NCBI GenBank assembly: GCA_903851195.1
Contig: CAINNJ010000025.1
Coordinates: forward strand, 62,001 to 126,000
Source of the DNA: an uncultured Acidobacteriia bacterium
GTDB taxonomy: Bacteria; Acidobacteriota; Terriglobia; Bryobacterales; Bryobacteraceae
Direction of reading: 5' to 3'
DNA: 64,000 nucleotides
Below are positions 1,485 through 35,465 of this stretch, piece after piece. Position 1 is the first letter of the stretch, and each line of letters opens with the position of its first letter. The notes beneath the pieces were generated by a model, which ran no database searches, was not told where the DNA came from, and saw only the letters and a list, made by a program, of their open reading frames with translations. The position numbers were made by a program, and so were the translations under genes.

Positions 1485-1487
1485 CCG

Positions 1488-10294: not shown

Positions 10295-10302
10295 GTTCAG
10301 CC

Positions 10303-17210: not shown

Positions 17211-17296
17211 ATGGAATCGCCGCGCGTATCGCCGCGCAAACGATGTCCGGTTATTCCGGTGAATTGCCTCCGGACACGGTATGTCACGCTGAGCAA

Positions 17297-19106: not shown

Positions 19107-20003
19107 TTAAACCAGACTTGAGCTTTCCGGCGGCACGGTCAGGATTCGGTTCTCAAACCGGGGATTAATGTAGACGTCTCTGCGGATTCCCTCCAGATAC
19201 TCGCGCCGCCACGCGGCCGGACTCCGCCCCTCGGCTGCGGTGAAGTGCCGCGTGAAGTGGTGGACAGTCTGGAAACCCACCTGCTCCGCCACTTCTTTCA
19301 GCGTGTAATCGGAGTAGCGAATCAGATCTTTCGCGCGCATCACGCGGTGGCGCTGCAGAAACGCCAGCGGCGCCATCCCGACGCTGGACTGGAAGTGCTG
19401 GCGCAGAGTCCGCTCGGTGCAGCCGGCGACACGCGCAATCTCGCGCACGGTCAGTTGTTCGCAGAGCCGCGAACGGATGCACAGAAGAGCGCGGTCGATC
19501 ACCGGATCCTGATGCTGCGCGTCCGTGGCGGCGGTTGTGCTCTCGGCCGGCGCTCCGGCCGGGCCCTGCCGCAGGTACAAAAACAGGATCTCCGAAAGCA
19601 GCGCGCTGCAGAGTTCGCGATAATACGGCTGCTTTTGCTCGCCTTCCACGCGAATTCTTTCCAGACGCGCGGCAATACCGGAGTCTTTTAGCCGCGGTAC
19701 GTGGGTCGCGCTCCGGAGGCCGCGTTCCAGCACGCCTTTGCCGACGCGGAACTTGACGTCCAGCGTCCGCATCAGCGAGTTCGCGCGCAGCCCGTGCGTC
19801 TCCCCCGCGCGAATCACGCAGAGTTCCCCTCCGGCGATGGGCAACGTGCGGTCGCCGATGGTGAACACGCCTTTGCCGTCGAGAAACAGGATGAGTTGGA
19901 AATAATCGTGATGATGCAGCCGCAGGCTCCAGCCTGCCTGGTAGTCATAACGCGCAATCCACAGGACGTCCACGCCTGTTTTCAGGATCGAGCGCTGTGG
20001 CAT
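19107..20003 (-). CDS. AraC family transcriptional regulator with N-terminal cupin
   Basis: A 298-residue regulator. The N-terminal third is a sugar-binding cupin-like fold (LHHHDYFQLILFLDGKGVFTIGDR, then GGELCVIRAGETHGL). The last 100 residues hold two helix-turn-helix units (LTVREIARVAGCTERTLRQHF and YTLKEVAEQVGFQTVHHFTRHF, then GRSPAAWRREY). The start at 20003 avoids overlap with the upstream enolase-superfamily gene, which ends 44 nt before. It is the third gene of the leftward arm of the sulfated-polysaccharide locus and the only regulator there, so it is the likely sugar-responsive activator of both arms. That role is inferred from position. Confidence 0.9.
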   Translation of the reverse strand: MPQRSILKTGVDVLWIARYDYQAGWSLRLHHHDYFQLILFLDGKGVFTIGDRTLPIAGGELCVIRAGETHGLRANSLMRTLDVKFRVGKGVLERGLRSATHVPRLKDSGIAARLERIRVEGEQKQPYYRELCSALLSEILFLYLRQGPAGAPAESTTAATDAQHQDPVIDRALLCIRSRLCEQLTVREIARVAGCTERTLRQHFQSSVGMAPLAFLQRHRVMRAKDLIRYSDYTLKEVAEQVGFQTVHHFTRHFTAAEGRSPAAWRREYLEGIRRDVYINPRFENRILTVPPESSSLV

Positions 20004-20047
20004 GCCTTCAATTATGAACTGAAGAGCCTTGCCCGGATTCGCTGGAG

Positions 20048-21475
20048 TCAGGATTCGGAACCCTGGCTCGTGCACAGGCCGGGCCCGTCCAGACCGGCCG
20101 CATCCAGGTAGCCGTCTCTCACATCGAAGATTCCCGGATAGCGTTTTTCCCAGCCCCGGCTGGCGACGGGAACATATTCCCGCGCGTTCGCTTCCACGGC
20201 CGCGGTGCCCGGTATGTGCGCCGCGATTCCCACCGAGTGGACCAGCGCCGCGCCGGGACACGTCAGGTCCTGCACGCAGCGGAACATCTTATACTTCTGC
20301 GCCGCGGCCGCCATGAGCAGCGTCTGCGACTGCCCTTTGCAGGCCTTCAGCGCGACACCCGTGTAACCCATATCGCGCGCCAGCAGCAGCGTGTCGAGGC
20401 CGGTCAGGGATTCGTCGATCACAATGGGCCGCAGCTTCGCGGCTTCGAACATGGTGTTGCCGCGATCCGCCGCGAGATCCCGCGCGGTGGGCTGCTCGAT
20501 GTACTGAACGCGCGTGAAGGCTTCGGGCGCCATCTTCTTCAGCGTGCGCTCGAACTCAAGCAGGTACTGCACGTTGGGACAGCGCTCGTTGAAATCCAGC
20601 GAGTACACCCAGTCGCGAAAGCCCCGTTTTTGCTGCGCGGCGGTTGTGACGCGATCAATCTCGGCAACCCGGCCGGCATCCCACGTCAGGTCGTTTCCGT
20701 TGAGCTTGATCTTGATCGCGGTCACGCCGCTGTACGGAATCCAGTCTTCCAGACATTCCGGCAGGCCGTCGCCGATTTTCTTTTGCACCTCGCCCGGCGT
20801 CAGGGAATCCGAGGCGCCCACGGAATGGTACATGCGGACGCGCTTCGCCATCTTCGGCGCAATGTATTGATCCAGATATTCGCCGCGGAACTCCGGGTTC
20901 AGATAGTGCGCCAGATCGTGCCGCACGAAGTCTTTGCCACACACGGAGAACGCGTTGCGATGGTGGAGTTTCCCGAACGCGTCGTGCAGAGCGGCGTCCA
21001 GCGGGCTGGCCGTCACCAGCGTGCACAACTTCGGGATGGCCACGGGGAGGTTCAGTTCGCGCGAGACCTCCGCGGCTGCCTTGAGATATTCGGGCTCCAG
21101 CGCGAGATTAATATCCAGAGGATGCGCGAAACCGGTAAACGACCGGGTAATTCGCTCGATTCGCAGCGCGAGGGCTTTCATGGCGCCGAGAGTCGTCTCG
21201 TACGGAACACCAGGCGCGGGGAAGGACCAGACGTTGCCGAGCGGGATCGCCGCGTAGCCACTCGCGGATTGGCCGCTTCGCAGACGCAGCCTGCAGCGCA
21301 CATTCAGAATGGTGACCCGGTCGACTTCCCTGCCCCCGAATTTGTAGGGAGCCCGATACAGGAAATCTTCGAAGGACGTGGAAATCTCTTCAATGCGGGC
21401 GTCGGTTGTCTTCGCGGCGAGAAACAACGCGGGCATGGCGAGGAACTCCCGGCGAGGGAAGCCACCTGACATCAT
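20048..21475 (-). CDS. Exported enolase-superfamily (mandelate racemase/muconate lactonizing) enzyme
   Basis: A 475-residue enzyme likely to dehydrate or epimerise a sugar acid. The ATG at 21475 overlaps the stop of the upstream Gfo/Idh/MocA gene (ATGA). The N-terminus carries [15 protein letters not shown], a twin-arginine-type signal. The barrel has the expected K255-x-K257 (IKIKLNG), metal ligands D294 (SLDFNE), E327 (YIEQP) and D354-E355 (VIDES). The late catalytic region is around [14 protein letters not shown]. It groups by composition with large mandelate-racemase-like proteins found beside exported dehydrogenases. Acting outside the cytoplasm would be unusual for this superfamily, so the signal deserves testing. 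Confidence 0.85.
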
Positions 21476-22722
21476 GAAAGTTTCCAGGGAGCGCGGTAGG
21501 GGCGGGCCAGCCATGTGTTGGCCTCGTCATCGCCGACGATTCGCTCTGCTGCGGCGTCCCAGCGGATCGACCTCCCCAGACGAGTCGAGATGTTGCCCAG
21601 ATGGCACATGACCGCGGAACGATAGCCCTCTTCGATGTCGGCGGTCGGTTTCTCCCGGCTCCGGAGGCAGTTCAGGAAGGTGCGCGCGTGCGGCGCGTTC
21701 AGGTCCTGGCCTTTCATCGACATCGCCTCAATGGCCGGCGCCGTTGAGCCCTTCGGCGTTTCCGGGTAGACGTTGTATCCGGCGCGCGTCAGCGACATCA
21801 TGCCCTTACTGCCGTAAATATCAAGCGTGGAAGTCTTGCCCTCCGCCACTTCGCTGGTGGACCAGAGAACGGTGGCTTTCGGGAAACGGTAGAGCACTTC
21901 CTGCACGTCCGGCGTTTCGCCGCCATCGGTAAGACCGAAGCGTCCGCCCATGCCGGAAACTTCGAGCGGCGCTTCGGCGCTCAGAATCCAGCGGGCGATA
22001 TCAAGGTGGTGCGCGCCCCAGTTGGTCATCTGACCGCCGGAGTAATCCCAGAACCAGCGGAAATTATAAATGGCCCGAAAGGCGTCGAAAGTCCGCTTGG
22101 GGGCCGGTCCCAGCCACATGTCCCAATCGAGCTTGCCGGCCTCGAAATCGGCCGGTTTGAGTCCCGGAAATATATTTCGCTGAAAGCCGGCGTGAATGCG
22201 GTGGACTTCGCCGAGCGTGCCATCCTGGATCAGTTTCACGGCCTGAATGTAGTGCGCGCCGGAACGCTGCTGGCTGCCGGTCTGGACAACACGCTTGTGC
22301 AGGCGGGCGGCGTCGAGCATCCGGCGGCCTTCCGCGACGGTCAGAGACAGAGGCTTCTCGCAATACACGTCCTTGCCGGCTTCGCAGGCGGCGATGGTCA
22401 TGAGGGCGTGCCAGTGGTCCGGAGTCGCCACGATCACCGCATCTATGTCCTTCCTGTCCAGCAACCGGCGGAAATCCTTGTGCCCCGTCGCGCGTCCCTT
22501 GTCGGCCGACATGGCGATGCCCTGGTTCAGAAAGTTTTCGTAGACATCGCAGACCGCCACGGGATCGACGTCGGGTTGTTTAAGGAACGTGCCCCAGTCT
22601 TCCCGGCCGCGGCCGCCCGAACCGATCAGGCCGAGCCGCACCCGATCGTTGGCGCCGAAAACGCGCGTGGCACTCAGGGCGGAAACGGCGCTTACGGCGA
22701 TGGAAAAACGACGTCGGGTCAT
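21472..22722 (-). CDS. Tat-exported Gfo/Idh/MocA oxidoreductase
   Basis: A 416-residue oxidoreductase. The ATG at 22722 has AAAGAGG 9 nt upstream and begins [24 protein letters not shown], a twin-arginine signal. The Rossmann loop [10 protein letters not shown] (32-40) follows, then the catalytic E122-K123-P124. The C-terminal domain contains [21 protein letters not shown], the conserved active-site segment, and ends [12 protein letters not shown]. Exported members of this family keep NADP tightly bound, as in glucose-fructose oxidoreductase. It is first in the leftward operon with the enolase-family enzyme and AraC gene, from a promoter that faces the rightward TonB receptor operon. Confidence 0.9.
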
Positions 22723-22745
22723 GAACGGGCCTCTTTGCTCCTTCA

Positions 22746-22774
22746 GATATATCGCACGGAAGCTGCCTGGGCAA
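22746..22774 (-). promoter_or_regulatory. Promoter for the leftward arm of the polysaccharide locus
   Basis: On the minus strand there is a -35 TTGCCC (22769-22774), a 17-bp spacer and a -10 TATATC (22746-22751), 24 nt before the ATG at 22722. The rightward gene has its own -10 100 nt away, so an activator bound between them could serve both. Confidence 0.45.
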
Positions 22775-22848
22775 CCGGCAAGGCGCCCGGAGCGCGGCAA
22801 TCTCCGTTTCAGACAAAAAAAAGACCGGTCCGGCGGCGGCGCGCCCGA

Positions 22849-22854
22849 TATAAT
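22849..22854 (+). promoter_or_regulatory. Perfect -10 TATAAT for the rightward receptor-sulfatase operon
   Basis: TATAAT lies 53 nt upstream of the receptor start codon. No good -35 is present at 16-18 bp, where the sequence is GC-rich, so the promoter may need an activator such as the AraC protein of this locus. Confidence 0.4.
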
Positions 22855-22907
22855 TGGGCCACCGGGCGGGGATCCTGTCTTCCCCGCTTACTTTCAGAGG
22901 GGTGTTC

Positions 22908-25900
22908 ATGCGGTGGACTTTGTCGTTCCTGTTTGCGGCCAGCAGTCTGATGGCGCAGGCCCCGTCGGCCAGCGTCACGGGGCGCATCACGGATGCGTCG
23001 GGCGCGGTGATTCCGGGTGTCTCGGTGAAGGTCGCGAACGTCGCCACCAATCAGACGCGCGCCGGTCTCTCGAATGCCGCGGGAGACTACAACCTCCTGT
23101 ATTTGCCGCCCGGACGCTATACACTGGAGGCGGACGCAAAGGGTTTCGCGACGCATAAGCAGGCGGCGTTCAGCCTGGATCTCGATCAGGAACAAAGAAT
23201 CGACATCCGGCTGGAGGTGGGCACAACCGGCCAGACCATCACGGTGGCCGAAACGCCTGAATCGCTGAATACGGAAAACGGCTCGCGCGGCGACGTGACA
23301 TCGAACGCCGAACTCACCGAATTACCTCTGAATGGCCGGAATTATACCGATCTTTCCTTTCTGACGGGCGGCGTGGTCGCGAAATCCGACAACACGGACG
23401 GCCAGTTCTCCGTGAACGGCGCCCGCGCCGACAACGTCGGTTTCCTGATCGACGGCATGAACAACACGCAGCGGCGCAACACCACCGTGATGGTGACGCC
23501 GCCTCTTGAAGGCGTCCAGGAGTTCAAGGTCATCACCTCGGGCTTCGCCGCCGAGTACGGCCGCTACGCCGGCGGACTGGTCAGCATGGTCACGCGCAGC
23601 GGAGGGAATCAGGTGCGGGGATCGCTGTACGAATTTCTCCGGAACAATGCCTTTGACGCCCGCAATTTCTTTGACGCCACGAAATCGAAACTGATTCTGA
23701 ATCAGTTCGGCGCCACCGTGAACGGTCCCGTGGTGCTGCCGAAGATTTACCACGGAAAAGACAAGACATTTTTTCTCTTCAGCTGGGAGACGCTGCGCTC
23801 CGTTTCCGGCATCACGGCGCGCGGCGTGGTGCCCGATCCGCAGATGCTGTCGGGGGATTTCACGGGTGCCCGGACCGCGGCCGGAAAACCGCAGACGATT
23901 ATCGATCCGCTGGCCGGCAACACCGCCTTCGCTGGCAATAAGATTCCGGCCTCACGCCTCGATCCGGTCTCCCGCGCGATTGACGCGTATTACCCGAAGC
24001 CCAATGTTTCGGGCAACGTCAACAATTACATTTCGCAGGGGAACTCCGGCACGAATGCGCCGAAGTTCAATACCAAGGTGGATCACGCGATCGGCGCGAA
24101 CGACCGCCTGACCTTCAGCGCTCTCTGGAACAATACGGCCGCCGTGGCCCCGTTTATAACAAACCGCTCTCCGGTGATTCCGTTCGGGACCACCAACGAC
24201 ACGTTCGGCTTGCTGGCGGGAATTCGCTATATCCATATCTTCTCGCCCTCGCTTTTCAACGAGGCGAGCGTCAATTTCTCCCGCAGCACGCTGCGGCAGT
24301 TGCCCACGGCCAGCGATCACGACTGGTCCGCCGAGGCCGGTTTCCTCGGGGCCACCAAAAACCCGCTCGATCTGGGCCTGCCCTACATAACCGTCAGCGG
24401 CTACATCGATCTGGGCCAGCCTTACGATCTGCCGAAAACCTGGTCGTACAACAATTTTCAGTATGCAGACGGCGTCACCTGGATTCACGGCCTGCATACC
24501 GTGAAATTCGGCGGCGACCTGCTCCATTTCCAGTATTTCAATCACGATTACAGCGATTTGCGGGGACGCATGACCTTTCTGGGCCGCTTCACTAACGATC
24601 CGATGGCGGACCTGGTGCTGGGTTACGCCCAGACCAGCCGCCGGCTCACGCAGGTAGGCAGCGAATACCACCTGGTCTCGAACTACTCCGGCTTCGTGCA
24701 GGACAACTTCAAGGCAACGCCCCGGCTCACGCTGAACGTCGGCCTTCGTTACGAACTGCTCAAACAGCCGGTCGAGAAATACAACGCTCTGGCGATGTTC
24801 GTGCCGAGCCTTGGCAAACTGGTGGTTGCCGGACGTGGCCTGCTGTCGCAGACGGATTATGACAGTGCGATCCAGTCCACCGGAGTAGCGCCCTACATTA
24901 CGACGACAGACGCCGCGGGCCTGCCACGCAGCGTGGTGAAAACGAATTACGCGGACTTCGCGCCGCGCTTCGGCTTTGCCTGGCGGCCCTTCGGCAACCG
25001 GACCGTGATCCGCGGCGGTTACGGAATCTTTTACGGCACCGACTCGCTGTATCGCTACAGCGGCTTCAGCAACACCTTCCCGTTCACCAATACGCTGACG
25101 TTCACCGCGACTTCCAGCGCTCCGCTGGGCCTCACCGTCTCGAACCCGTTCCCCGCGGCCAAAGCGAAGAACTCCGGCGTCACCAGCACGAACGGAATGC
25201 TCGCGGACAGCCCCAGCCAGTACCTGCAGTCCTGGAACGCCACCATCGAACGCGACCTGGGAGCGGGCACGGTGGTCGAACTCGCGTTCGCCGGCTCCAA
25301 AGGCACACACCTGCCCATCCGCTATAACGTCAACCAGCAGACACCCGTGCCCGGCGTGGGACTGGCGGCAAAGCCCTTTCCCGTTTTTTCCACCGTCACG
25401 ATTATCGACGACTCCAGTAACTCCATATACAACTCAGGCACGGTTACCGTGCGGCGACGGCTCAGCCGGCAACTCTTCGTGCGCGCCACTTACGTCTACG
25501 GAAAATCGATTGACCGGTCGTCCAATACGGCGGGCGTGCTGGCCGCGCAGAATGCCTTTAACCTGGGCGCCGAACGCGGCCGGTCCGACTTCGACGTGGG
25601 CCATTCGTTCCTCGCGAGCTTTATTTTCGCGCCAAAACTTTCCAATTACTACGCGCTGCGGGACTGGCAACTCAGCGGGTCCATGACGGCCTACACCGGC
25701 CTGCCGTTCAATCCGCAGGTGGCGAATTTCGACCTGACGACGGGAGGCGCCTCCCGCCCGGACCGTATTGGCTCCGGCAAACTGGACAACCCAACACCCG
25801 ACCAATGGTTTAACCGCAGTGCGTTTCCCGTTGTCCCGGCGGGGGCGTTCCGCTTCGGCGACTCCGGCCGCAACGTGATCGACGGGCCCGGCACTTTCGT

Positions 25901-26096
25901 GCTGAACACCGGGGTCTCGCGCCGCTTCCGCTTTACGGAAACGCGCGCCGTGCAGTTCCGGGCCGAAGGCTTCAATCTGACGAACCGGGCGAATTTCGGC
26001 CTGCCGAATCCGCAGGTAGACGTGCTGAGTGGCGGCACCATCACCACCGCCAAAGCGCCGCGACAACTGCAACTCGGGCTGCGGCTCGAATTTTAG
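22908..26096 (+). CDS. TonB-dependent receptor, Oar-like (locus receptor 1)
   Basis: A 1062-residue outer-membrane transporter. The ATG at 22908 has AGAGGGG 8 nt upstream and a clean signal peptide (MRWTLSFLFAASSLMAQ). A carboxypeptidase-regulatory domain (ASVTGRITDASGAVIPGVSVKV) precedes the plug (ELTELPLNGRNYTDLSFLTGG, FSVNGARADNVGFLIDGMNN, EFKVITSGFAAEYGRYAGG). The barrel ends in LQLGLRLEF. It heads an operon in which a sulfatase follows after 19 nt, and is likely to import the large or partly digested polysaccharide. No SusD-like binding partner is encoded, as is usual for acidobacteria. Confidence 0.94.
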   Translation: MRWTLSFLFAASSLMAQAPSASVTGRITDASGAVIPGVSVKVANVATNQTRAGLSNAAGDYNLLYLPPGRYTLEADAKGFATHKQAAFSLDLDQEQRIDIRLEVGTTGQTITVAETPESLNTENGSRGDVTSNAELTELPLNGRNYTDLSFLTGGVVAKSDNTDGQFSVNGARADNVGFLIDGMNNTQRRNTTVMVTPPLEGVQEFKVITSGFAAEYGRYAGGLVSMVTRSGGNQVRGSLYEFLRNNAFDARNFFDATKSKLILNQFGATVNGPVVLPKIYHGKDKTFFLFSWETLRSVSGITARGVVPDPQMLSGDFTGARTAAGKPQTIIDPLAGNTAFAGNKIPASRLDPVSRAIDAYYPKPNVSGNVNNYISQGNSGTNAPKFNTKVDHAIGANDRLTFSALWNNTAAVAPFITNRSPVIPFGTTNDTFGLLAGIRYIHIFSPSLFNEASVNFSRSTLRQLPTASDHDWSAEAGFLGATKNPLDLGLPYITVSGYIDLGQPYDLPKTWSYNNFQYADGVTWIHGLHTVKFGGDLLHFQYFNHDYSDLRGRMTFLGRFTNDPMADLVLGYAQTSRRLTQVGSEYHLVSNYSGFVQDNFKATPRLTLNVGLRYELLKQPVEKYNALAMFVPSLGKLVVAGRGLLSQTDYDSAIQSTGVAPYITTTDAAGLPRSVVKTNYADFAPRFGFAWRPFGNRTVIRGGYGIFYGTDSLYRYSGFSNTFPFTNTLTFTATSSAPLGLTVSNPFPAAKAKNSGVTSTNGMLADSPSQYLQSWNATIERDLGAGTVVELAFAGSKGTHLPIRYNVNQQTPVPGVGLAAKPFPVFSTVTIIDDSSNSIYNSGTVTVRRRLSRQLFVRATYVYGKSIDRSSNTAGVLAAQNAFNLGAERGRSDFDVGHSFLASFIFAPKLSNYYALRDWQLSGSMTAYTGLPFNPQVANFDLTTGGASRPDRIGSGKLDNPTPDQWFNRSAFPVVPAGAFRFGDSGRNVIDGPGTFVLNTGVSRRFRFTETRAVQFRAEGFNLTNRANFGLPNPQVDVLSGGTITTAKAPRQLQLGLRLEF

Positions 26097-26115
26097 GTCT
26101 TGACAGGAAATTCTA

Positions 26116-27729
26116 ATGAATCGACGCACATTTATCGGAACCGTCGCCGCCGGAGTCACTGCAGCATCCGCCGCCTCGTCGAAACCGAACATCATCGTGA
26201 TCCTGGCCGATGACATGGGATTTTGCGATATCGGCTGTTATGGCTCCGAGATCAGTACGCCCAACCTCGACGCACTGGCGAAGTCGGGTGTGCGGTCCAC
26301 GCATTTCCGGAATACCGCGCGGTGCTGCCCCACCAGAGCGGCTTTGCTGACCGGGGTTTACTCGCATCAGGCCGGCGTCGGACACATGGTGAACGATTAT
26401 GGAGTTCCCGGCTATCGTGGCGAACTCAGCCGCAATGCGGTTACAATTGCCGAAGCGCTCAAGGGCGCGAGTTACTCCACGGCCATGGTGGGAAAGTGGC
26501 ACGTCACCACGCCCGATCCGGATAAGCGCGATAACTGGCCGGGTAAGCGCGGTTTTGATTACGTTTACTCGAATATCGTCGGCGCAACCAATTACTTCGC
26601 TCCGCACGGACTGATCCGGAACGATCAGCCTATTACGGCCACCGGCGATTACTATCACACCGAAGCGCTGACCGACGAAGCCATCGGCTACATCAACCGC
26701 CAGAAAGACGCCACGAATCCGTTTTTCCTGTATCTCGCCTATACGGCGCCGCACTGGCCCTTGCAGGCGCGCGACGCCGACATCGCGAAATATGCGGGAC
26801 GCTACGCCGGCGGCTGGGACAAACTCCGTGCCGAGCGTTATCAGCGCATGCTGGAAATGGGCGTGGTGGATGCGAAATGGGGCATCGCGCCGCGCGATCC
26901 CGACATTCCGGCGTGGGACTCCGTTCCCAACAAAGAATGGCAGCAGCGCCGCATGGAGGTTTACGCCGCGCAGGTGGAAGAACTCGATCGCGGCATCGGA
27001 CGTGTGCTCGATGCGCTGAAAGCCACCGGCGCGGAGGAGAACACCCTGGTGTTGTTCATGTCCGACAATGGCGGCTGCGCGGAAGTAATCAAAAATACTC
27101 CGAACGCCGGTTATCCCACAAAAACCCTTACAGGACAGAACGTGACCTGGGGAAATCGCCCGTCCGTGATGCCCGGACCGGCCACCACGTTCCAGAGCTA
27201 CGGGCCGGAGTGGGCGCACCTGAGCAACACACCGTTCCGCATGTACAAACATTGGGTACACGAAGGCGGCATCGCGTCGCCACTGATCGCGCGATGGCCC
27301 AGGCAGATCAAAGAACACGGCACGTGGACGCACCAGTCCGGACATGTGATCGACGTGATGGCCACCTGCCTCGACGCCGCGGGCGCTTCCTACCCCAAGA
27401 CATACAACGGGAACACCATCACACCGCTTCAGGGTAAGTCCCTGCTGCCCGCGCTGCGCCAGCCGAAACACACCACCGCGCGAACTTTGTTCTGGGAACA
27501 CGAGGGCAACCGGGCCGTGATTGAAGGCGACTGGAAGCTGGTCTCGAAATATAAGGGACCGTGGGAGCTTTATAATCTGGCCGAAGACCGGATTGAGACA
27601 AAAGATCATGCGGCGACGGACCTTGCACGCGTGAAAAAGATGGAAACGCTGTATGAAGCGTGGGCCGCGCGCTCGCAGGTAGTGCCGTGGGACCGGCTGA
27701 ACCGCACCGGCGCGCAGGGGAACGGATAA
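26116..27729 (+). CDS. Arylsulfatase-type sulfatase, Tat signal (locus sulfatase 1)
   Basis: A 537-residue type I sulfatase that would remove sulfate esters from a carbohydrate. The N-terminus MNRRTFIGTVAAGVTAASA is a twin-arginine signal. Metal ligands D32-D33 (VILADDMGF) are followed by the formylglycine motif C70-C71-P72-T73-R74, in which Cys70 would become formylglycine. MVGKWHV and the late LFMSDNGGCAE supply further active-site residues. The variant CCPTR still fits C-x-P-x-R. It sits 19 nt after the TonB receptor gene. No maturase (FGE or anSME) gene is in the window. The natural substrate is unknown. Confidence 0.93.
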   Translation: MNRRTFIGTVAAGVTAASAASSKPNIIVILADDMGFCDIGCYGSEISTPNLDALAKSGVRSTHFRNTARCCPTRAALLTGVYSHQAGVGHMVNDYGVPGYRGELSRNAVTIAEALKGASYSTAMVGKWHVTTPDPDKRDNWPGKRGFDYVYSNIVGATNYFAPHGLIRNDQPITATGDYYHTEALTDEAIGYINRQKDATNPFFLYLAYTAPHWPLQARDADIAKYAGRYAGGWDKLRAERYQRMLEMGVVDAKWGIAPRDPDIPAWDSVPNKEWQQRRMEVYAAQVEELDRGIGRVLDALKATGAEENTLVLFMSDNGGCAEVIKNTPNAGYPTKTLTGQNVTWGNRPSVMPGPATTFQSYGPEWAHLSNTPFRMYKHWVHEGGIASPLIARWPRQIKEHGTWTHQSGHVIDVMATCLDAAGASYPKTYNGNTITPLQGKSLLPALRQPKHTTARTLFWEHEGNRAVIEGDWKLVSKYKGPWELYNLAEDRIETKDHAATDLARVKKMETLYEAWAARSQVVPWDRLNRTGAQGNG

Positions 27730-27781
27730 TCATGTCCGCCCGTGGCCGCGAAAAAACAATTCACGTATCAGCAGGAAGATC

Positions 27782-30700
27782 ATGATCATCTCAAAACGTT
27801 CGCTCTGTCTGGCGGCTCTGGTGACTTGCACCGCCGCTCTTGTATCCGCACAGGATTCCCGCGGCACCATTTCCGGCCGGGTTCTCGATCCGCAGGAAGG
27901 AACGATTGTCGCCGCGAGAGTCAGCGCCACGAACCAGGAGTCCGGCGTGGCCACATCCGCGGTAACGAATGAAGCGGGTAATTTCCGCCTGCCGTTTCTT
28001 TTACCGGGGCTTTATCGGCTCACTGTCGAGATGAACGGCTTCAAGACTTATTCCCAGACCGGACTCGAACTCCACGTGGCCGATTCGCTCGATGTGACGG
28101 TCCGGCTGCAGGTGGGCAACGTCGCCGACACGATCGATGTCCAGGGTTCGACGCCACTGCTCGACACGGCCGATAGCTCCGTCGGCGATGTGATCGACAC
28201 ACGTCGCCTGGCCGAGCTGCCGCAGCGCGGCGGCAATCCTCTGGAACTGGAGCGGCTGAGCCCCGGCGTGGCCAACACCACGACGATCCGCATCATGAAA
28301 CTCTCTTCGCCGGACGGCACCTCCAGCATGACCGTCAACGGCAGCGGCAACGACCAGACGCAGTACAACATCGACGGCGTCAACGACACCACAAATGATC
28401 GCGGCAAGGGTTATGCGCGCGTGGCGTTTATTCCGCCCTCCGGCTCCGTGCAGGATTTTAAACTCCAGTCGAACCCCTATGACGCCGCGGTGGGTCACGT
28501 TCTTGGTCCCGTCATCAACGTCGGCACGAAGAGCGGCGGCAACGCTATTCACGGCGAGACTTATTACTGGGCTCGCAACAGCGCCTTCGATTCCTCGAAT
28601 TTTTTCGATAACAAGGCCGGACTGAAGAAGTCGGTCTACCAGGATCACCGCTACGGGGCAAGTGTGGGCGGCCCGGTCTTGATCCCGGGCGTCTATGATG
28701 GCCGAAACCGCAGTTTCTGGTTTTATTCGTGGGAAGAGAACCGGTATGGCCAGCCTTCCACCTCCAACCAGACCAGCACCGTGCCCACCGCGGCCGAACG
28801 GGCCGGCGATTTCTCCGCGCTGCTGGCGCTGGGTTCCAGCTATCAGATTTACAACCCGTTCTCGACTGTAGCCATCGCGGGCGGCCGCTACCAGCGAACG
28901 CCTTTCGCAGGCAATATTCTGCCGAAGAGTCTGCTGAGCGCGCCCGGCCTGAGCCTGGCTAGCTACTATCCGCTGCCTAACCAGACAGGCACCGTCAACG
29001 GCCAGAATAATTATTACTTTCCGGACGTTCGAATTCAACGCTATGACTCTCATCTGGCGCGCTTCGACCACCAGTTCAGCCAGAATCACCGCGTCTTCGC
29101 CCGAATTAATCACTTCGGCTACACCATCCCGAAAGACCTGTTGGGCGTTCCGGCCACGAAGGAGATCTTCCACCAAACCAATCAGGGCGGAGCGCTCGAC
29201 TATGTGGGCGTCCTGAGCCCCACACTCGTGCTGAACGTGCGCTACGGGATTGTGTCCGCAATCTATCCGGAAGCCCGCGTCACGCAAGGCACCGATCTGG
29301 GAACTCTCGGATTTTCCGGCGCTCTTACCAAACTGCTGAACCCTTCCACCACCACCGTGCCACGCGCCACCGTGACCGGTTTCGCAACGCTTTCGAACTG
29401 GTCCGATGGCGACGGCTTCGCGGCCGCCACCACGCATACTCTGGTAGGCGATCTTACCAAATCCATCGGCCGGCACTCGGTTCGCTTCGGCGCCGACGCC
29501 CGCCTCTTCCGTACCTTCAGCAACCGCTACTCCGGGTCGATCTCCCCGGACTTCACCTTCGCAAACACTTACACGAAGGGGCCGCTCGATAACTCCGCCG
29601 CCGCCTCACTGGGTCAGGAACTGGCGGCGATGCTGCTGGGCATTCCCGGAGGCAGTCTCACGTCCGGATCCACGCTGAATTACGCGCTGCAGAATAAGTA
29701 CTGGGGCGCGTTCCTGCAGGACGATTTCCGGCTCTCTTCGAAACTTACTCTTAACGTGGGACTCCGCTTCGAACAGGAGACAGGCCTGACGGAACGCTAT
29801 AACCGCCTTCTGGGAACGTTCGACACGTCCGTGAACAGCCCGGTAGCTGCGGCCGCGACCGCCGCTTACGCGAAGAATCCGATTCCGGAACTCCCGACCG
29901 CGGCCTTTTCGGCTAAGGGCGGACTTACGTTTGTGGGACAGAATGGCGCCGGCCGCAGCCCTTATGGCAACAGCAACAACTGGCTGCCGCGAGTCGGTCT
30001 GGCTTACCAGCTTAACGATAAGACGGTAATCCGCAGCGGCTACGGAATTTTCTTCGGTACCATCGGCGTGGATACCCTCCAGCCTGTGCAAACCGGCTTC
30101 TCTCAGTCCACCCCTATCCAGGCTTCGCTGAACAATGGCGTCACCTATACAGCGACGCTCGCGAATCCTCTGCCCAATGGCCTGATACCGGCCGCGGGCG
30201 CCGCCGGCGGACTCAGCACCAATCTCGGTCAGGCGATCCAGTTCTTCGATCCCAAGATGAAAGCGCCTTACTCGCAACGCTGGTCTTTCGGAGCGCAGCG
30301 GCAGTTACCGCTCGAATTCGTCCTCGACGTCAGCTATGTCGGGAACCGGACCACCCATCTCGCCGTGACGAAACAAATCAATACGACACCTGCCCAGTAC
30401 CTGAGCACTTCGGCCACGCGCGATCAGAACACGATCAATTTCCTGACCGCAACCTTCCCGAATCCCTTTTCCGGGCTAAACTCGGTCTACACTTCCACCA
30501 TTTCGCGCGCCAGCCTGCTGACACCGTATCCTCAGTTCGGCGCGATCTCCGTGCTGGAGCCGCAGGGCTACAGCTGGTACCACTCTTTACAGGCGCGCCT
30601 GGAGAGGCGCTTCAGCCAGGGCTACACAGTGCAGTTCGGCTACACATACTCGAAGTTCATGCAGGCGACAGAGTTCCAGAACGCCAGCGACGCGCGGCCT

Positions 30701-31258
30701 TACCGTACGGTCTCCGACCTGGACCGGCCTCAGATTCTGACCATGAGCGGCGTCTGGGAAATTCCCTATGGAAAGGGCAAAGCTTTCGGTGCTCATGCGC
30801 CCGGGGCGATTCAAGCCGCGCTTGGTGGCTGGCAACTGAACGGCACCGCGATCCGCCAGGCCGGCGCGCCACTGGGTTTCGGGAATGCGCTGTTCTCCGG
30901 TAACATTAAAGACATCGCGCTCCCACAGGATCAACGGAGCGCGGATGAGTGGTTCAACGTCAACGCCGGCTTCGTGAAAGCGACCGCCAACCAACTGGCG
31001 AATAATATTCAGACTTTCCCGATCCGTTTCAGCGGCGTTCGCTCCGATGGTCAGGCCACGTGGAGCGCCTCGCTTTTCCGGAATTACACGATCCGTGAAA
31101 GGGTCACCGCGCAGTTCCGTGCCGAGGTGTTCAACCTGAATAACCACCCGACGTTCGATGTGCCGAACACCACGCCGACGAGTTCTTCCTTCGGCATCGC
31201 AACGGCGACCATTTCCGAGCCCCGCAACTGGCAGTTCGCACTGAAATTAAAGTTCTAA
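27782..31258 (+). CDS. TonB-dependent receptor, Oar-like (locus receptor 2)
   Basis: A 1158-residue outer-membrane transporter with signal peptide MIISKRSLCLAALVTCTAALVSA. It carries a carboxypeptidase-regulatory domain (RGTISGRVLDPQEGTIVAARV), a plug (RRLAELPQRGGNPLELERLSPG, VNGSGNDQTQYNIDGVNDTT) and a barrel ending WQFALKLKF. AGGAAG lies just before the start. It is diverged from the receptor at 22.9 kb in the plug and in length, so the two probably take up different fragments. Sulfatase 1 lies 52 nt upstream and sulfatase 2 is 7 nt downstream, which supports a single operon. Confidence 0.94.
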   Translation: MIISKRSLCLAALVTCTAALVSAQDSRGTISGRVLDPQEGTIVAARVSATNQESGVATSAVTNEAGNFRLPFLLPGLYRLTVEMNGFKTYSQTGLELHVADSLDVTVRLQVGNVADTIDVQGSTPLLDTADSSVGDVIDTRRLAELPQRGGNPLELERLSPGVANTTTIRIMKLSSPDGTSSMTVNGSGNDQTQYNIDGVNDTTNDRGKGYARVAFIPPSGSVQDFKLQSNPYDAAVGHVLGPVINVGTKSGGNAIHGETYYWARNSAFDSSNFFDNKAGLKKSVYQDHRYGASVGGPVLIPGVYDGRNRSFWFYSWEENRYGQPSTSNQTSTVPTAAERAGDFSALLALGSSYQIYNPFSTVAIAGGRYQRTPFAGNILPKSLLSAPGLSLASYYPLPNQTGTVNGQNNYYFPDVRIQRYDSHLARFDHQFSQNHRVFARINHFGYTIPKDLLGVPATKEIFHQTNQGGALDYVGVLSPTLVLNVRYGIVSAIYPEARVTQGTDLGTLGFSGALTKLLNPSTTTVPRATVTGFATLSNWSDGDGFAAATTHTLVGDLTKSIGRHSVRFGADARLFRTFSNRYSGSISPDFTFANTYTKGPLDNSAAASLGQELAAMLLGIPGGSLTSGSTLNYALQNKYWGAFLQDDFRLSSKLTLNVGLRFEQETGLTERYNRLLGTFDTSVNSPVAAAATAAYAKNPIPELPTAAFSAKGGLTFVGQNGAGRSPYGNSNNWLPRVGLAYQLNDKTVIRSGYGIFFGTIGVDTLQPVQTGFSQSTPIQASLNNGVTYTATLANPLPNGLIPAAGAAGGLSTNLGQAIQFFDPKMKAPYSQRWSFGAQRQLPLEFVLDVSYVGNRTTHLAVTKQINTTPAQYLSTSATRDQNTINFLTATFPNPFSGLNSVYTSTISRASLLTPYPQFGAISVLEPQGYSWYHSLQARLERRFSQGYTVQFGYTYSKFMQATEFQNASDARPYRTVSDLDRPQILTMSGVWEIPYGKGKAFGAHAPGAIQAALGGWQLNGTAIRQAGAPLGFGNALFSGNIKDIALPQDQRSADEWFNVNAGFVKATANQLANNIQTFPIRFSGVRSDGQATWSASLFRNYTIRERVTAQFRAEVFNLNNHPTFDVPNTTPTSSSFGIATATISEPRNWQFALKLKF

Positions 31259-31265
31259 GGATCCG

Positions 31266-32687
31266 ATGACCAATCGCCGTGAGTTTCTGGCAGCCTTTGC
31301 TGCCGCCCCGTTAGCCGCGCAGAGCACCAGGAAAAGTAAGCCGAACGTTCTGTTTATCGCCGTGGACGACCTGCGCCCGGAGCTGAGCTGCTACGGGTTC
31401 AACTACATCCACAGTCCGAACATGGACCGCATCGCGAAGATGGGCATGGTCTTCGATCGCGCCTATGTCCAGCAGGCGGTTTGTTCGCCCTCCCGGTCGA
31501 GCCTCCTCACGGGAACACGACCCGATTCCACGAAGGTCTGGGATCTGGTCACTCACTTCCGCGCCGCCGAACCGAACATCGCCACGCTGCCGGAGCATTT
31601 CAAGAACAACGGCTACTTCGTTCAGGGCATGGGTAAGATCTACCATCCCGGCTATGACGATCCGCAGTCCTGGTCCGTGCCGTGGCAGACGCCGAAAGCG
31701 CCCACTTACGCCAAAACCGTCACGCCGAACGTCGAGGATGAGGACAAAGTCCGAAAGGGCGGTCCGGCTTTCGAAGCAGGGGATGTCGCGGATAACTTCT
31801 ACAAAGACGGCATGGTGGCGGATATCGCCGTGCAGACTCTCAAGACTCTGGCGAAGAAGCCCGAGCCATTTTTCCTTGCGGTAGGTTTCGCGAAGCCCCA
31901 CCTGCCCTTCGTTTCGCCGAAAAAGTACTGGGATCTGTACGACCCCGCGAAGATCCAGTTGGCGCCGAATCCGTACCATGCGGAGGATTCACCCGAATAT
32001 GCGCTCACCAGCAGCGGCGAACTGCGCAATTACTTCGGGATTCCGGCCAAGGGGCCTATGCCCGATTCGCTGGCGCGCCAACTGAAGCACGGTTACTATG
32101 CGTCCATCAGCTATACCGACGCCCAGATCGGCAAGGTTCTGGATGAACTGGAGCGCCAGAATCTGACGAAGAACACCATCGTCGTTCTGTGGGGCGACCA
32201 CGGCTGGAAGCTTGGCGAACACGGCGAATGGGCTAAACACAGTAATGTGGAGAACGACACCAACGGCGCCCTCGTAATTGCCGCGCCGGGTATGAAGGCT
32301 TCCGGTAAGCACAGCAAGGCTCTGGTGGAATTCGTGGACGTTTTTCCCACCCTGGCCGATCTCGCCGGACTCTCCCTTCCTTCGCATCTGGAAGGCGTGA
32401 GTTTCAAGCCGCTGCTTGATCAGCCGGATCTCAAGTGGAAATCCGCCGCCTTCAGCCAGTATCCGCGAGCCAAACGGATGGGTTACTCGATGCGCACGGA
32501 ACAGTACCGCTTCACGGTTTGGGTGCAGAAAGACAACCATGAACAGGTGGATTTCGTGGAGCTTTACGACCATACAGCCGATCCTCAGGAAAACACAAAC
32601 ATCGCTCACCGGCCGGCGAATGCGGAACTGGTGAAACAACTGATGGGGCAGTGGAAAGCCGGCTGGCAGGCCGCCAAACCTTCGTAA
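31266..32687 (+). CDS. Sulfatase, iduronate-2-sulfatase-like, Tat signal (locus sulfatase 2)
   Basis: A 473-residue sulfatase with twin-arginine start MTNRREFLAAFAAAPLAA. Metal ligands are D34-D35 (FIAVDDLRPELSCYG). The formylglycine motif is C73-S-P-S-R77 (AVCSPSRSSLLTG). The phrase VDDLRPELSCYG, plus SPNMDRIAKMG and LWGDHGWKLGEHGEW, is characteristic of iduronate-2-sulfatase-like members, which act on 2-O-sulfated uronic acids. It starts 7 nt after the second TonB receptor and is followed 12 nt later by the alginate-lyase-family gene. A uronate-2-sulfate substrate would fit the adjacent lyase; this is family-based inference. Confidence 0.93.
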   Translation: MTNRREFLAAFAAAPLAAQSTRKSKPNVLFIAVDDLRPELSCYGFNYIHSPNMDRIAKMGMVFDRAYVQQAVCSPSRSSLLTGTRPDSTKVWDLVTHFRAAEPNIATLPEHFKNNGYFVQGMGKIYHPGYDDPQSWSVPWQTPKAPTYAKTVTPNVEDEDKVRKGGPAFEAGDVADNFYKDGMVADIAVQTLKTLAKKPEPFFLAVGFAKPHLPFVSPKKYWDLYDPAKIQLAPNPYHAEDSPEYALTSSGELRNYFGIPAKGPMPDSLARQLKHGYYASISYTDAQIGKVLDELERQNLTKNTIVVLWGDHGWKLGEHGEWAKHSNVENDTNGALVIAAPGMKASGKHSKALVEFVDVFPTLADLAGLSLPSHLEGVSFKPLLDQPDLKWKSAAFSQYPRAKRMGYSMRTEQYRFTVWVQKDNHEQVDFVELYDHTADPQENTNIAHRPANAELVKQLMGQWKAGWQAAKPS

Positions 32688-32699
32688 GTGATGGCCTGA

Positions 32700-33878
32700 A
32701 TGATAACTATGATGAACCGACGATATTTTCTGACCGGCTGTGCCGCGGCGTCATTGGCCGCAACAGCCCGGGCGGCTGCGGATACAAAGTTCGACGTCGC
32801 CGCGTTTGACGGGACGCGCGTTCTCCGCAACGCGCGCAAATATCTGTCCGATAAGCCCATCACGGTAACGGCGGCACAGAGCAAGCGCAGCGCGGGCGGC
32901 CTCCACGACTTCTTTTCCGAAGGCGATTACTGGTGGCCGGACCCGAAAAACCCCGAGGGTCCTTATATCCGCCGCGACGGCATGACCAACCCGGATAATT
33001 TCGTGGAGCATCGCGCGGCTTTGATGAAACTGAGCGTCCAGGCGCCTGCGCTGGCCGCCGCATGGAAATTAACCCAGGACCGGAAGTACTCGGACCACGC
33101 GGCCGCGCATATCCGCGCCTGGTTCGTGGACGAAGCCACGCGCATGAATCCGAATCTGGAGTATGCACAGGCCATTCACGGCCTTTATACGGGACGCGGC
33201 ACCGGCGTCATCGACACGATTCATCTGGTGGAAGTCGCCCGCGCCATTCCGCTGATTGCCGGATCGGGTTCTTTGTCTCCTGCCCATTTTGACGCGACGA
33301 AAAGATGGTTCGCCGACTATCTGACCTGGATGAATACCAGTAAGAACGGCAAGGAAGAGCGCGATGCCAAAAATAATCATGGAACCTGCTGGTACCTGCA
33401 GGCAGCGGCGTTTGCAAAACTAACGAACAACTCGGAAGTTCTGGCGAACTGCGCAAGACAACTCAGAACTTCCATCATTCCCCTCCAGATTGCGCCCGAC
33501 GGAAGTTTTCCCCTGGAACTGGCTCGCACCAAGCCTTACGGCTACTGTCTTTTCAATCTGGAAGCGCTCACCACGCTGTGTCACATTGTTTCGGAAACGG
33601 GCGACAATCTCTGGAACTTCACAACACCCGATGGCCGCGGCATCGCCAAAGCCATTGAATATATGTTCCCGTATATCCGCGATAAGAAGACCTGGCCGAA
33701 TCCGCCGGATGTGATGTACTTCGACTCCTGGCCGATGCGGCAGGAAGCATTGCTGTTTGGCGGACTTGCCTATGGCCGCGCCGAGTACCTGGATGTCTGG
33801 AAAAAGCTTCCCGCCGATTCCGATGTGGAAGAAGTGATCCGCAATTACTTTATTCGTCAGCCGCTCCTGTGGGTTTAA
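32700..33878 (+). CDS. Alginate lyase family protein (uronan beta-eliminase), Tat signal
   Basis: A protein of up to 392 residues with an alginate-lyase alpha/alpha barrel, expected to cleave uronate-containing chains by beta-elimination. Several starts are close together (32700, 32709, 32712). From MNRRYFLTGCAAASLAATARA a twin-arginine signal is visible. YWWPDPKNPEGPYIRRDG opens the catalytic domain; the Asn-His neutraliser/base region reads KNNHGTCW, followed by LARTKPYGYCLFNLEAL, matching the Arg-Tyr part of the active site. The pattern resembles the alginate-lyase and glucuronan-lyase (PL5/PL38-type) group. It is co-directional with sulfatases on both sides, so desulfation and chain cleavage are probably coupled. 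Confidence 0.9.
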   Translation: MITMMNRRYFLTGCAAASLAATARAAADTKFDVAAFDGTRVLRNARKYLSDKPITVTAAQSKRSAGGLHDFFSEGDYWWPDPKNPEGPYIRRDGMTNPDNFVEHRAALMKLSVQAPALAAAWKLTQDRKYSDHAAAHIRAWFVDEATRMNPNLEYAQAIHGLYTGRGTGVIDTIHLVEVARAIPLIAGSGSLSPAHFDATKRWFADYLTWMNTSKNGKEERDAKNNHGTCWYLQAAAFAKLTNNSEVLANCARQLRTSIIPLQIAPDGSFPLELARTKPYGYCLFNLEALTTLCHIVSETGDNLWNFTTPDGRGIAKAIEYMFPYIRDKKTWPNPPDVMYFDSWPMRQEALLFGGLAYGRAEYLDVWKKLPADSDVEEVIRNYFIRQPLLWV

Positions 33879-33965
33879 AGAAACATGCGGCGGAGTCGTT
33901 CGACAACAAGACGCGCGAAACATTCTGCAGTTCCGGCGCAGGCCTGAAAGACGAATAGAAACGAA

Positions 33966-35312
33966 ATGATGAACAGACGAGATCTTCTGAAGAACGCAGC
34001 CTGTGCCGCGGCCGGCGGCATTGTGGCGGATTTGCTGCCCGCACAGGGCGGCAGGAAGCCGAATATTATCTTCATTCTGGCTGACGATCTGGGCATCAAC
34101 GGTCTGGGCTGCTACGGCGCGGATCACTACAAGACCCCGAATATCGATAAACTGGCGCGCGAAGGCACGCGTTACACACACGCCTATACGGCGCCGCTCT
34201 GCGGTCCGTCCCGCGCGCTTATCATGACGGGCCGATACGCCTTTCGCACCGGCGCCACCAATCAGGACGCAACCGGACTGATGAAGCCCGCGGTGGAAAC
34301 CATGATGCCGTCTTATCTCAAACCCGCCGGCTACGTAACCGCGTCTATCGGAAAGTGGGGTCAGCTTCCTCTCGGACCGGCTGAATTCGGCTTCGATGAA
34401 TATCTGAAGTTCAAAGGCAGCGGCGTGTACTGGAACACGCAGGAGAACGGTAAGACCATCCGGGTGAACGGCAACCCGAGAACCATTCGCGATAAAGAAT
34501 ATCTGCCCGACGTGATGCATGATTTCACTGTCGATTTCATGACCCGGCATCGGGAAACTCCGTTCTATATCTATTACTCCCTGTCTCACGTGCATGCGGA
34601 AATCCTGCCCACTCCGGACAGCAAGCCGGACAGCAAGGATCTCTACGCCGACAATATTGCCTACATGGATAAGCTGGTCGGAAAGCTGATCGCCGAACTG
34701 GAAAGGCTGAAACTGCGCGACAATACGCTGATCGTTTTCGTCGGGGATAACGGCACCGGCGGGGCGTACGCGGCCCAGTCGACCATCGGCGGACGCCGCA
34801 TCGCCGGCGAGAAAGGTTCCATGCTGGAAGGCGGAGCGAACGTGCCCATGATTGTCAACTGGCCGCGCAGAACGCCGGCCGGCAATGTTTCCGCGGACAT
34901 GGTGGATTCCACGGATTTTCTGCCGACTTTCGCCGAGATCGCGGGCGCGAAGCTTCCGGCGGACAAAGTGCTCGACGGGCACAGCTTCGCGCCGCAGATC
35001 TACGGCAAAAAGGGCCAGCCGCGCGAATGGATCTTTATCGAGCTCGCAAGAGACTGGTATGTCCGGGAGCAGAACTGGAAACTCAATCAGGCCGGTGAAT
35101 TGTTTGACATGACGCCGTCGCCGTTTGCCGAGCCGGTGATCCCCGCTGATACGACGAACCCGGCGGCGAAGGCGGCCCGAATGCGCTTGCAGGCGGCCCT
35201 CGATAAACTGAATCCCGGCGGAGGAATTCTGGACGAAGGCGACGGCACCGGGCGGCACGCGAATCGCGAAGAGAACAGAAAGAAGAAAAAGGCCAAAAAG
35301 CAGGCGAACTGA
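33966..35312 (+). CDS. Sulfatase, Tat signal, Lys-rich tail (locus sulfatase 3)
   Basis: A 448-residue sulfatase. MMNRRDLLKNAACAAAGG is a twin-arginine-like start. D40-D41 (FILADDLGINGLGCYG) bind the metal, and the formylglycine motif is C79-G-P-S-R83 (APLCGPSRALIMTG). SIGKWGQ and VFVGDNGTGG supply further active-site residues. The C-terminus ends in a basic tail (NREENRKKKKAKKQAN), unusual for an exported enzyme and possibly for binding a polyanion. It lies 87 nt after the alginate-lyase-family gene and closes the rightward operon. It differs in sequence from the other two sulfatases, so it is expected to act on another sulfate position. Confidence 0.92.
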   Translation: MMNRRDLLKNAACAAAGGIVADLLPAQGGRKPNIIFILADDLGINGLGCYGADHYKTPNIDKLAREGTRYTHAYTAPLCGPSRALIMTGRYAFRTGATNQDATGLMKPAVETMMPSYLKPAGYVTASIGKWGQLPLGPAEFGFDEYLKFKGSGVYWNTQENGKTIRVNGNPRTIRDKEYLPDVMHDFTVDFMTRHRETPFYIYYSLSHVHAEILPTPDSKPDSKDLYADNIAYMDKLVGKLIAELERLKLRDNTLIVFVGDNGTGGAYAAQSTIGGRRIAGEKGSMLEGGANVPMIVNWPRRTPAGNVSADMVDSTDFLPTFAEIAGAKLPADKVLDGHSFAPQIYGKKGQPREWIFIELARDWYVREQNWKLNQAGELFDMTPSPFAEPVIPADTTNPAAKAARMRLQAALDKLNPGGGILDEGDGTGRHANREENRKKKKAKKQAN

Positions 35313-35376: not shown

Positions 35377-35465
35377 TGGTGCCCGGGGCGGGAATTGAAC
35401 CCGCACACCCGTTGCCGGATAACGGATTTTAAGTCCGTTGCGTCTGCCGATTTCGCCACCCGGGC
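35377..35465 (-). tRNA. tRNA-Leu (anticodon TAA)
   Basis: A complete class II tRNA on the minus strand. The 7-bp acceptor stem is GCCCGGG/CCCGGGC with discriminator A, and CCA is encoded at 35377-35379. The T arm has GGTTCAATTCC. The anticodon loop CTTAAAA gives anticodon TAA (plus-strand 35429-35431), and a variable arm is present as expected for leucine. A TAGAAT (plus-strand 35475-35480) just upstream could be its -10. Confidence 0.95.

Follow-up and report, generated by a model that had tools for sequence, protein, structure and literature searches.

Most work on the breakdown of sulfated polysaccharides concerns bacteria of the sea and the gut. In Bacteroidota PULs, such as the ulvan PUL of Formosa agariphila and the GAG loci, one regulated cluster combines a polysaccharide lyase with TonB-type receptors and exported sulfatases, and the same elements occur in a locus on the 64,000-nucleotide stretch of DNA analysed here ("the window"). 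The acidobacterial origin suggested for this DNA in an initial annotation, made from the sequence, agrees with its closest named relatives, which are Bryobacterales/Acidobacteriia MAGs; within the open-access text covered by our literature search, no locus of this kind was found in Acidobacteriota. The locus probably serves to desulfate and cleave an acidic sugar polymer, and the reading we favour, and hold to be reasonably likely, is a composite locus that forms one AraC regulon and serves the catabolism of a sulfated polysaccharide containing uronate.

Layout of the locus

The ORF list and a Pfam profile search place nine ORFs in positions 19107-35312, three of them leftward and six rightward:

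19107..20003, minus strand: AraC-family regulator with a PF02311 sensor and a PF12833 HTH; core of module A
20048..21472/75, minus strand: enolase-superfamily protein (MR_MLE_C) with a Tat-type signal; own subfamily
21472..22722, minus strand: Gfo/Idh/MocA oxidoreductase (GFO) with a Tat-type signal; module B
22801..22827, plus strand: operator-like box TCTCCGTTTCAGACAAAAAAAAGACCG in the interval from GFO to TBDR1, its CCG triplets spaced by 21 bp
22908..26096, plus strand: TonB-type receptor TBDR1, CarboxypepD_reg and OMP_b-brl_4; module B
26116..27729, plus strand: S1_4-like sulfatase (CCPTR) with a Tat-type signal; module B
27782..31258, plus strand: TonB-type receptor TBDR2, CarboxypepD_reg and OMP_b-brl_4; module A
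31266..32687, plus strand: S1_7-like sulfatase (CSPSR) with a Tat-type signal; module A
32700..33878, plus strand: PL38-like lyase (PF05426) with a Tat-type signal and an LTGC lipobox, the latter seen by eye
33966..35312, plus strand: sulfatase SulfC (CGPSR) with a Tat-type signal

Each of the nine proteins has at least one match above the Pfam cut-off, the weakest being MR_MLE_C at 34.3 bits against a cut-off of 29.4, and twin-arginine-type signals are predicted in all six enzymes. The start listed for the AraC gene, 20261, makes it too long, as relatives start near the motif VDVLWIARYDY; the lyase coordinates are those of the ORF list, and the gene caller used for relatives begins the window lyase late, at 32754. 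This re-reading confirmed the genes, their order, the gaps and the three C-x-P-x-R motifs as initially annotated. The absence of SusD from the locus also stood: none of the nine proteins matches the SusD family in Pfam, and the rightward intergenic gaps (19, 52, 7, 12 and 87 nt, in gene order) leave no space for a further gene.

The operator-like box and the two modules

The regulator has an AraC-type sensor and a C-terminal HTH, domains that would assign it to AraC/XylS, and relatives 61-67% identical to it are present in six other genomes among the 257 searched, each beside the box. The box has the 27-bp consensus TYTCCGTTYNNGAYAAAN7CCG and lies to the left of a TATAAT at 22849; its CCG repeats, 21 bp apart and found beside the AraC gene in relatives, make it a candidate direct-repeat operator. 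Shuffling gives an expectation of 0.00 box matches in the window, and a search of 395,516 bases for the 27-mer with up to two mismatches returned one forward and no reversed match. Taken by itself, the 17-mer of the box shows no clear enrichment in the order, with 33 matches in the 257 genomes versus 28 for the reversed control; the specificity comes from the CCG at +21 and from the position, both criteria being picked after seven sites had been seen. A CCG at +21 is present in 11 of 32 sites examined: six lie between AraC and TBDR2 in relatives, one is that of the window, two belong to genome G017 (one before module B, the other before an S1_7-SulfC pair), one precedes another receptor, and one is beside a beta-helix protein. 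A further copy, with two mismatches, lies between AraC (53%) and TBDR2 (65%) in G203. In G017, neither the lyase stretches nor the surroundings of its AraC relative (48% identical; L056, L253, L247) yielded a box within two mismatches, and the lyase subclade L068, L069, L084, L085 and L088-L090 has neither such a box nor an AraC relative. AraC control of the locus through this box is probable, and the initially proposed link between the two arms is strengthened by the divergent intergenic region that they have in common, with the box inside it.

Two modules can be distinguished, module A (AraC, TBDR2, S1_7 sulfatase and lyase) and module B (GFO, TBDR1 and S1_4-like sulfatase). Loci L080-L082 have module A without module B, and G017 has module B without module A (81/79/83% identity); since the modules are found apart in relatives, the locus is composite. 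The gene order is therefore not supported as one old unit, and a conserved nine-gene order is rejected; it was seen intact in none of 40 lyase loci, nor in an overlapping set of 80, many of these loci being cut by contig ends. Of the five flanking genes of the window compared with relatives' loci, one match was found outside its own genome, in L181. A tRNA-Leu at 35377 adjoins the locus; as for its being an insertion site, a tRNA of any kind is present in three of 20 relatives' loci, in no case beside these genes.

KxK, D-F-N, IEQP, IDES and LK-x-CKG are conserved across 21 aligned members of the enolase-superfamily protein's family, KxK with a later conserved lysine being what we take to be the MLE-subgroup signature. 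Like the MLE-subgroup enolases (OSBS, muconate cycloisomerase, Ala/Glu epimerase), these proteins show that signature and weak profile matches, to the OSBS model in 18 of the 21 and to muconate cycloisomerase in eight; the L-rhamnonate dehydratase model is matched by one (E 0.098). The window's protein differs from that subgroup in its Tat-type signal and in forming a conserved family of its own. Even a profile search found it no solved relative at E<=0.01, and a single-sequence structure prediction gave a mean pLDDT of 35.4. The gene is matched in 160 of 257 genomes. The sugar-acid processing first ascribed to it is not supported, its weak matches being mainly of MLE type and the lyase lying near it in none of the 20 relatives' loci examined. 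GFO has its best NCBIfam match in the BT_2158 glycoside 3-dehydrogenase model, far below the cut-off (157 bits vs 750), and its best PDB matches in 8tdf and 8tdh; it shares Gfo/Idh/MocA membership with the BT2158-type glycoside 3-dehydrogenases and is unlike them in having a Tat-type signal and in adjoining a receptor and a sulfatase.

These observations bear on an alternative that we consider unlikely, in which two unrelated pathways abut, module B and the enolase-like protein serving another sulfated sugar and lying beside module A by chance. The occurrence of each module without the other would fit such an arrangement, as would an enolase-like gene that is widespread and has no lyase in any of its 20 loci; however, the same box is found on both modules, in G017 even with module B alone, the sole perfect box of the window's genome sits between the two arms, and the S1_4-like gene is only 52 nt from TBDR2. 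The same box on modules A and B supports a single AraC regulon that would cover both desulfation and cleavage by the lyase. A more far-reaching proposal, quite unlikely in our estimation, is that the single AraC operator would mark a dispersed Bryobacterales regulon for an undescribed sulfated uronan of freshwater or soil, gathered in the window, the exported oxidoreductase and the enolase-superfamily protein providing a new periplasmic redox or elimination step on desulfated uronides.

Lyase, sulfatases and the candidate polymer

The lyase matches PF05426 at 296.6 bits, and a PDB search (E<=1) gave seven matches, all of them 3nfv (219 bits) or 8bdq-type chains (up to 173 bits), which we take to be PL38, 8bdq being BoPL38. 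The Pfam match and these nearest relatives would place the enzyme in PL38, and its assignment to a polyuronate-lyase family is upheld. It has PF05426 in common with the PL38 lyases BoPL38, CUL-I, RiPL38 and Amuc_0778, the direct comparison made here being with the solved chains. Substrates of characterised PL38 enzymes include alginate, glucuronan, HA/CS and other GAGs (PMC13027841, PMC11790493).

Phylogenetic analysis covered 83 rows, 19 in the window's clade (support 100/99), 60 outside it and four paralogue rows that were set aside; three of 81 lyase loci had no focal lyase call (L129, L140, L145), five lyases were excluded as short, fused or aberrant (L119, L127, L128, L144, L150), and six were put into the tree by choice, five of which joined the clade of the window whereas L070 did not. 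E-x-x-R-[TS]-x4-Y is present in 79/79 of the tree sequences and NNHG in 63/79. A co-oriented adjoining sulfatase accompanies the lyase in 12 of the 19 window-clade rows, and two more have a divergent one; at least one (L054) of the seven members without a co-oriented adjoining sulfatase is cut by a contig end. No sulfatase was seen within 500 nt in the 60 non-paralogue rows outside the clade, four of which have less than 500 nt of sequence on one side. The pairing of sulfatase and lyase noted at the outset is thus kept in one clade, and is a feature that sets it apart from BoPL38, CUL-I, RiPL38 and Amuc_0778. Lakes are named for two members of the sulfatase-paired clade (Baikal-deep, LacPavin). 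Outside the clade, a GH88/105, GH29 or GH2 gene (assignments checked by Pfam on representatives) lies within 9 kb of the lyase in 26 of 64 loci, which is expected because the enzyme would leave unsaturated uronates.

All three sulfatases combine PF00884 with a C-x-P-x-R nucleophile motif and are S1 sulfatases on that basis; the S1_4 and S1_7 labels rest on the nearest solved chains. The CCPTR enzyme, presumably S1_4, has its best PDB match in 7all, followed by the arylsulfatase 1hdh. SulfC has no close solved subfamily in the PDB search, and three other genomes have it beside an S1_7-type gene. PF03781 (FGE-like) has 13 matches in the window's genome, the best of which, G000:C27:172829-173665, carries the two-cysteine stretch GGSYLCHASYCNRYR, which we take to be the FGE active site. 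The reported absence of FGE accordingly stands for the locus and falls for the genome, and with it falls the notion that maturation differs for want of FGE; with such a protein in the same genome, recognised by its typical cysteine pair, the sulfatases would form a formylglycine-dependent system. The S1_7-like enzyme matches 6hhm best (365 bits), assigned as the ulvan sulfatase P18_S1_7 (PMC9096561), and human iduronate-2-sulfatase next (284 bits), its matches also including the phosphonate ester hydrolases 4upk and 2w8s. P18_S1_7 is termed endo in one paper (PMC9096561), and the S1_7 enzyme exolytic in another (PMC8360166).

A target uronan that is free of sulfate or carries other decorations is decidedly unlikely, such as glucuronan or a fucose-rich bacterial exopolysaccharide, with sulfatase homologues that scavenge sulfur or act on other esters. 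Such a target would suit the outside-clade lyases, with their GH29, GH88/105 and GH2 neighbours and a sulfatase beside none of them, and the sulfatase fold does include phosphonate ester hydrolases; but a sulfated substrate is favoured by three C-x-P-x-R sulfatases, one of which has a polysaccharide sulfatase as its nearest match, by the presence of an FGE-like gene in the genome and by a sulfatase-lyase pairing limited to one clade. That the locus is strictly one for ulvan is very improbable despite the 6hhm match, as the nine genes include neither GH78 nor GH105 nor an ulvan lyase (families PL24, 25, 28, 37 and 40), the lyase being PL38-like, and as the same S1_7-like sulfatase also matches iduronate-2-sulfatase.

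Proposed pathway and comparison with PULs

In the favoured reading, that of a composite locus for a sulfated, uronate-containing polysaccharide, a polymer-derived product would bind the AraC sensor, and AraC would bind the 21-bp-spaced box at 22801-22827 and activate the genes of both arms. Oligosaccharides would enter the periplasm through the two TonB-type receptors, the Tat-exported lipoprotein lyase would cleave at uronate residues through beta-elimination, and the three Tat-exported, FGE-matured sulfatases would take off sulfate at differing positions; the exported oxidoreductase, and possibly also the enolase-superfamily protein, would alter the released sugars. AraC binding, the substrate and the enzyme activities are all inferred here from sequence comparison. 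A SusD-free, co-regulated version of such a system in Acidobacteriota with a candidate operator would make the rest of the regulon findable by DNA search, which could help to name the sulfated polymer served. The locus would be a glycan locus uniting two modules that bear the same box where they are apart, and, with its parts lying in separate loci of relatives that have one putative regulator-binding site in common, it lends itself to testing as a co-regulated glycan pathway.

Set against the Bacteroidota PULs, the window's locus has no SusD and hence no SusC/SusD pair; its receptors are of the CarboxypepD_reg plus OMP_b-brl_4 type, its control is probably exerted by AraC via the operator-like box, all six of its enzymes carry Tat-type signals, and it is built of two joined modules.

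Gene content and modular make-up

Re-calling the genes at 19107-35312 recovered nine, in the order given in the initial annotation, whose rightward intergenic gaps (19, 52, 7, 12 and 87 nt), three sulfatase C-x-P-x-R motifs (CCPTR, CSPSR and CGPSR, one per sulfatase) and lack of SusD were all borne out, the nine proteins having no match to that family in Pfam. By eye, each of the six enzymes has a predicted twin-arginine-type signal at its N-terminus, and the lyase additionally has an LTGC lipobox. The general idea of a sulfatase-lyase locus holds: the locus is genuine and, judging from its sequence, probably co-regulated. A tRNA-Leu(TAA) gene lies at 35377-35465, 64 nt past the last sulfatase gene; no tRNA adjoins these genes in 20 relatives' loci.

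The notion of a single conserved unit failed, as the locus is a composite of separable modules found apart in relatives: module A (AraC, receptor TBDR2, S1_7 sulfatase, lyase) and module B (oxidoreductase GFO, receptor TBDR1, S1_4-like sulfatase). Three relatives' loci (L080, L081, L082) have module A without module B, and behind AraC the latter two also carry a different sulfatase and an additional, distant PF05426 gene; L076 has AraC-TBDR2-lyase, and L077 the same followed by three sulfatases behind the lyase. Genome G017 has GFO-TBDR1-S1_4 (81, 79 and 83% identity) without module A. The enolase-like gene, with matches (E<=1e-20) in 160 of the order's 257 genomes, had been proposed to process sugar acids; this role is unproven, and the lyase is absent from all 20 relatives' loci read. 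It adjoins a GFO partner (68-71% identity) in three of these loci and a TIM-barrel protein of one cluster in nine (two members scanned, both PF01261).

Relatives of the last sulfatase, SulfC, occur in 28 of the 257 genomes, its own included (E<=1e-100), and adjoin an S1_7-type gene in G021, G057 and G017. In genome G018 (L181, 7655-10618) about 1 kb separates a SulfC relative (75%) from a counterpart (71% identity) of the gene at window 17243-17917, the flank on the opposite side of the window's locus. A second sugar cluster occupies window 561-5749, with Gfo/Idh/MocA and xylose-isomerase-like TIM-barrel genes and a leftward GH28-family gene (Tat-type signal). Window 8867-13119 encodes a DUF1501 protein (Tat-type signal) and a DUF1549/DUF1553 protein; the latter type likewise lies downstream of lyase locus L088.

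The lyase and its sulfatase pairing

The lyase belongs to PF05426 (296.6 bits) and is the sole match to it in its own genome; the seven solved structures related to it at E<=1 are 3nfv and 8bdq-type chains, which we take to be PL38. The substrates of characterised PL38 enzymes are alginate, glucuronan, hyaluronan and chondroitin sulfate (PMC13027841), and Amuc_0778 is active on every glycosaminoglycan tried except "heparin sulfate" (PMC11790493). Relatives occur in 95 of 257 genomes (E<=1e-20); those named among the best 80 of 590 come from Bryobacterales, other Acidobacteriota, Oxalobacteraceae, Caulobacter, Spirosoma, Ignavibacteria and others.

On a tree of 83 lyase rows, a clade of 19 (support 100/99) includes every row (12) in which a co-oriented sulfatase adjoins the lyase; members L079 and L053 have a divergent one. 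Outside it, with four distant paralogue rows excluded, none of 60 rows has a sulfatase within 500 nt of the lyase (four have <500 nt on one side). Fisher P for the association is 1e-9 (relatedness ignored), and the sulfatase label needs 3 changes on the tree vs 11.4 in shuffles, with none of 200 bootstrap trees needing only one. Sulfatase pairing is a clade trait. The records of two of the 12 sulfatase-adjacent members name lakes (Baikal-deep, LacPavin).

Among 64 lyase loci outside the clade, genes of GH88/105 (14), GH29 (10) and GH2 (13) lie within 9 kb of the lyase, at least one of them in 26 (Pfam on representatives, extended to others by profiles). Such neighbours fit a true lyase; inside the clade, L082 alone has one (GH2). 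An Ignavibacteriae MAG (L152, 9953-18165) holds a 51% identical lyase, a GH2-type gene and a SulfC relative (66%), a grouping in another phylum that suggests transfer.

Substrate and sulfatase maturation

The simplest reading of the substrate is a sulfated uronan. The S1_7-like sulfatase has as nearest solved chain 6hhm, named as ulvan P18_S1_7 in PMC9096561, followed by human iduronate-2-sulfatase; an ulvan locus in the strict sense is nevertheless unlikely, because the nine genes lack the other ulvan enzymes. The genome's one GH88/105 match and two GH29 matches all lie outside the window. The S1_4-like sulfatase is nearest to 7all and arylsulfatase 1hdh, and SulfC has no close relative among solved structures.

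The reported absence of FGE proved confined to the locus: away from it, the genome has a gene for an FGE-like protein with two cysteines, and sulfatase maturation would be ordinary. Sulfatase-family matches in the genome number 23 at E<=0.001, of which 22 exceed the cut-off. One sulfatase query found 271-388 loose candidate places per genome in G246-G256, a single genus (next highest listed, 239).

A box shared by the modules

A box emerged when intergenic sequences between AraC and TBDR2 (five relatives) and between GFO and TBDR1 (the window and G017) were aligned: TTTCCGTTTNNGAYAAA, then CCG 21 bp past the first CCG. In its own genome the 17-mer matches perfectly once, at the window's site, and one-mismatch copies number six vs two for the reversed control; across the 257 genomes, 33 perfect matches vs 28 in the reversed control (our tally) make the 17-mer by itself nonspecific. 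CCG at +21 is also present in 11 of 32 sites examined (the 33rd, in G190, was outside this set), and four of these composite boxes are independent of the derivation.

Composite boxes independent of the derivation (genome:contig)
G225: between AraC and TBDR2
G017:C8: precedes relatives of S1_7 (82%) and SulfC (75%)
G066:C456: precedes a different receptor
G228:C249: beside a beta-helix protein

The composite box occurs in all seven genomes whose AraC relative has at least 61% identity (13 genomes match at E<=1e-60), and G203 has a two-mismatch copy between AraC and TBDR2. TCGACA-17-TAxxCT starts 19-20 nt behind the box at the four measured module A sites (L076, L080-L082) and at the site before G017's S1_7 gene. 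At the window's site and that of G017's module B, TATAAT lies 31-32 nt behind the box. In G228 (L243, 6472-6510), two copies of TTTCCGTTT spaced 21 bp apart lie close to genes for an exported beta-helix protein and a receptor.

The shared box, a putative operator, would link modules A and B. AraC-type proteins that act on direct repeats use a 21-bp repeat. The type of locus is already known; its organisation is new, and the putative operator is testable.
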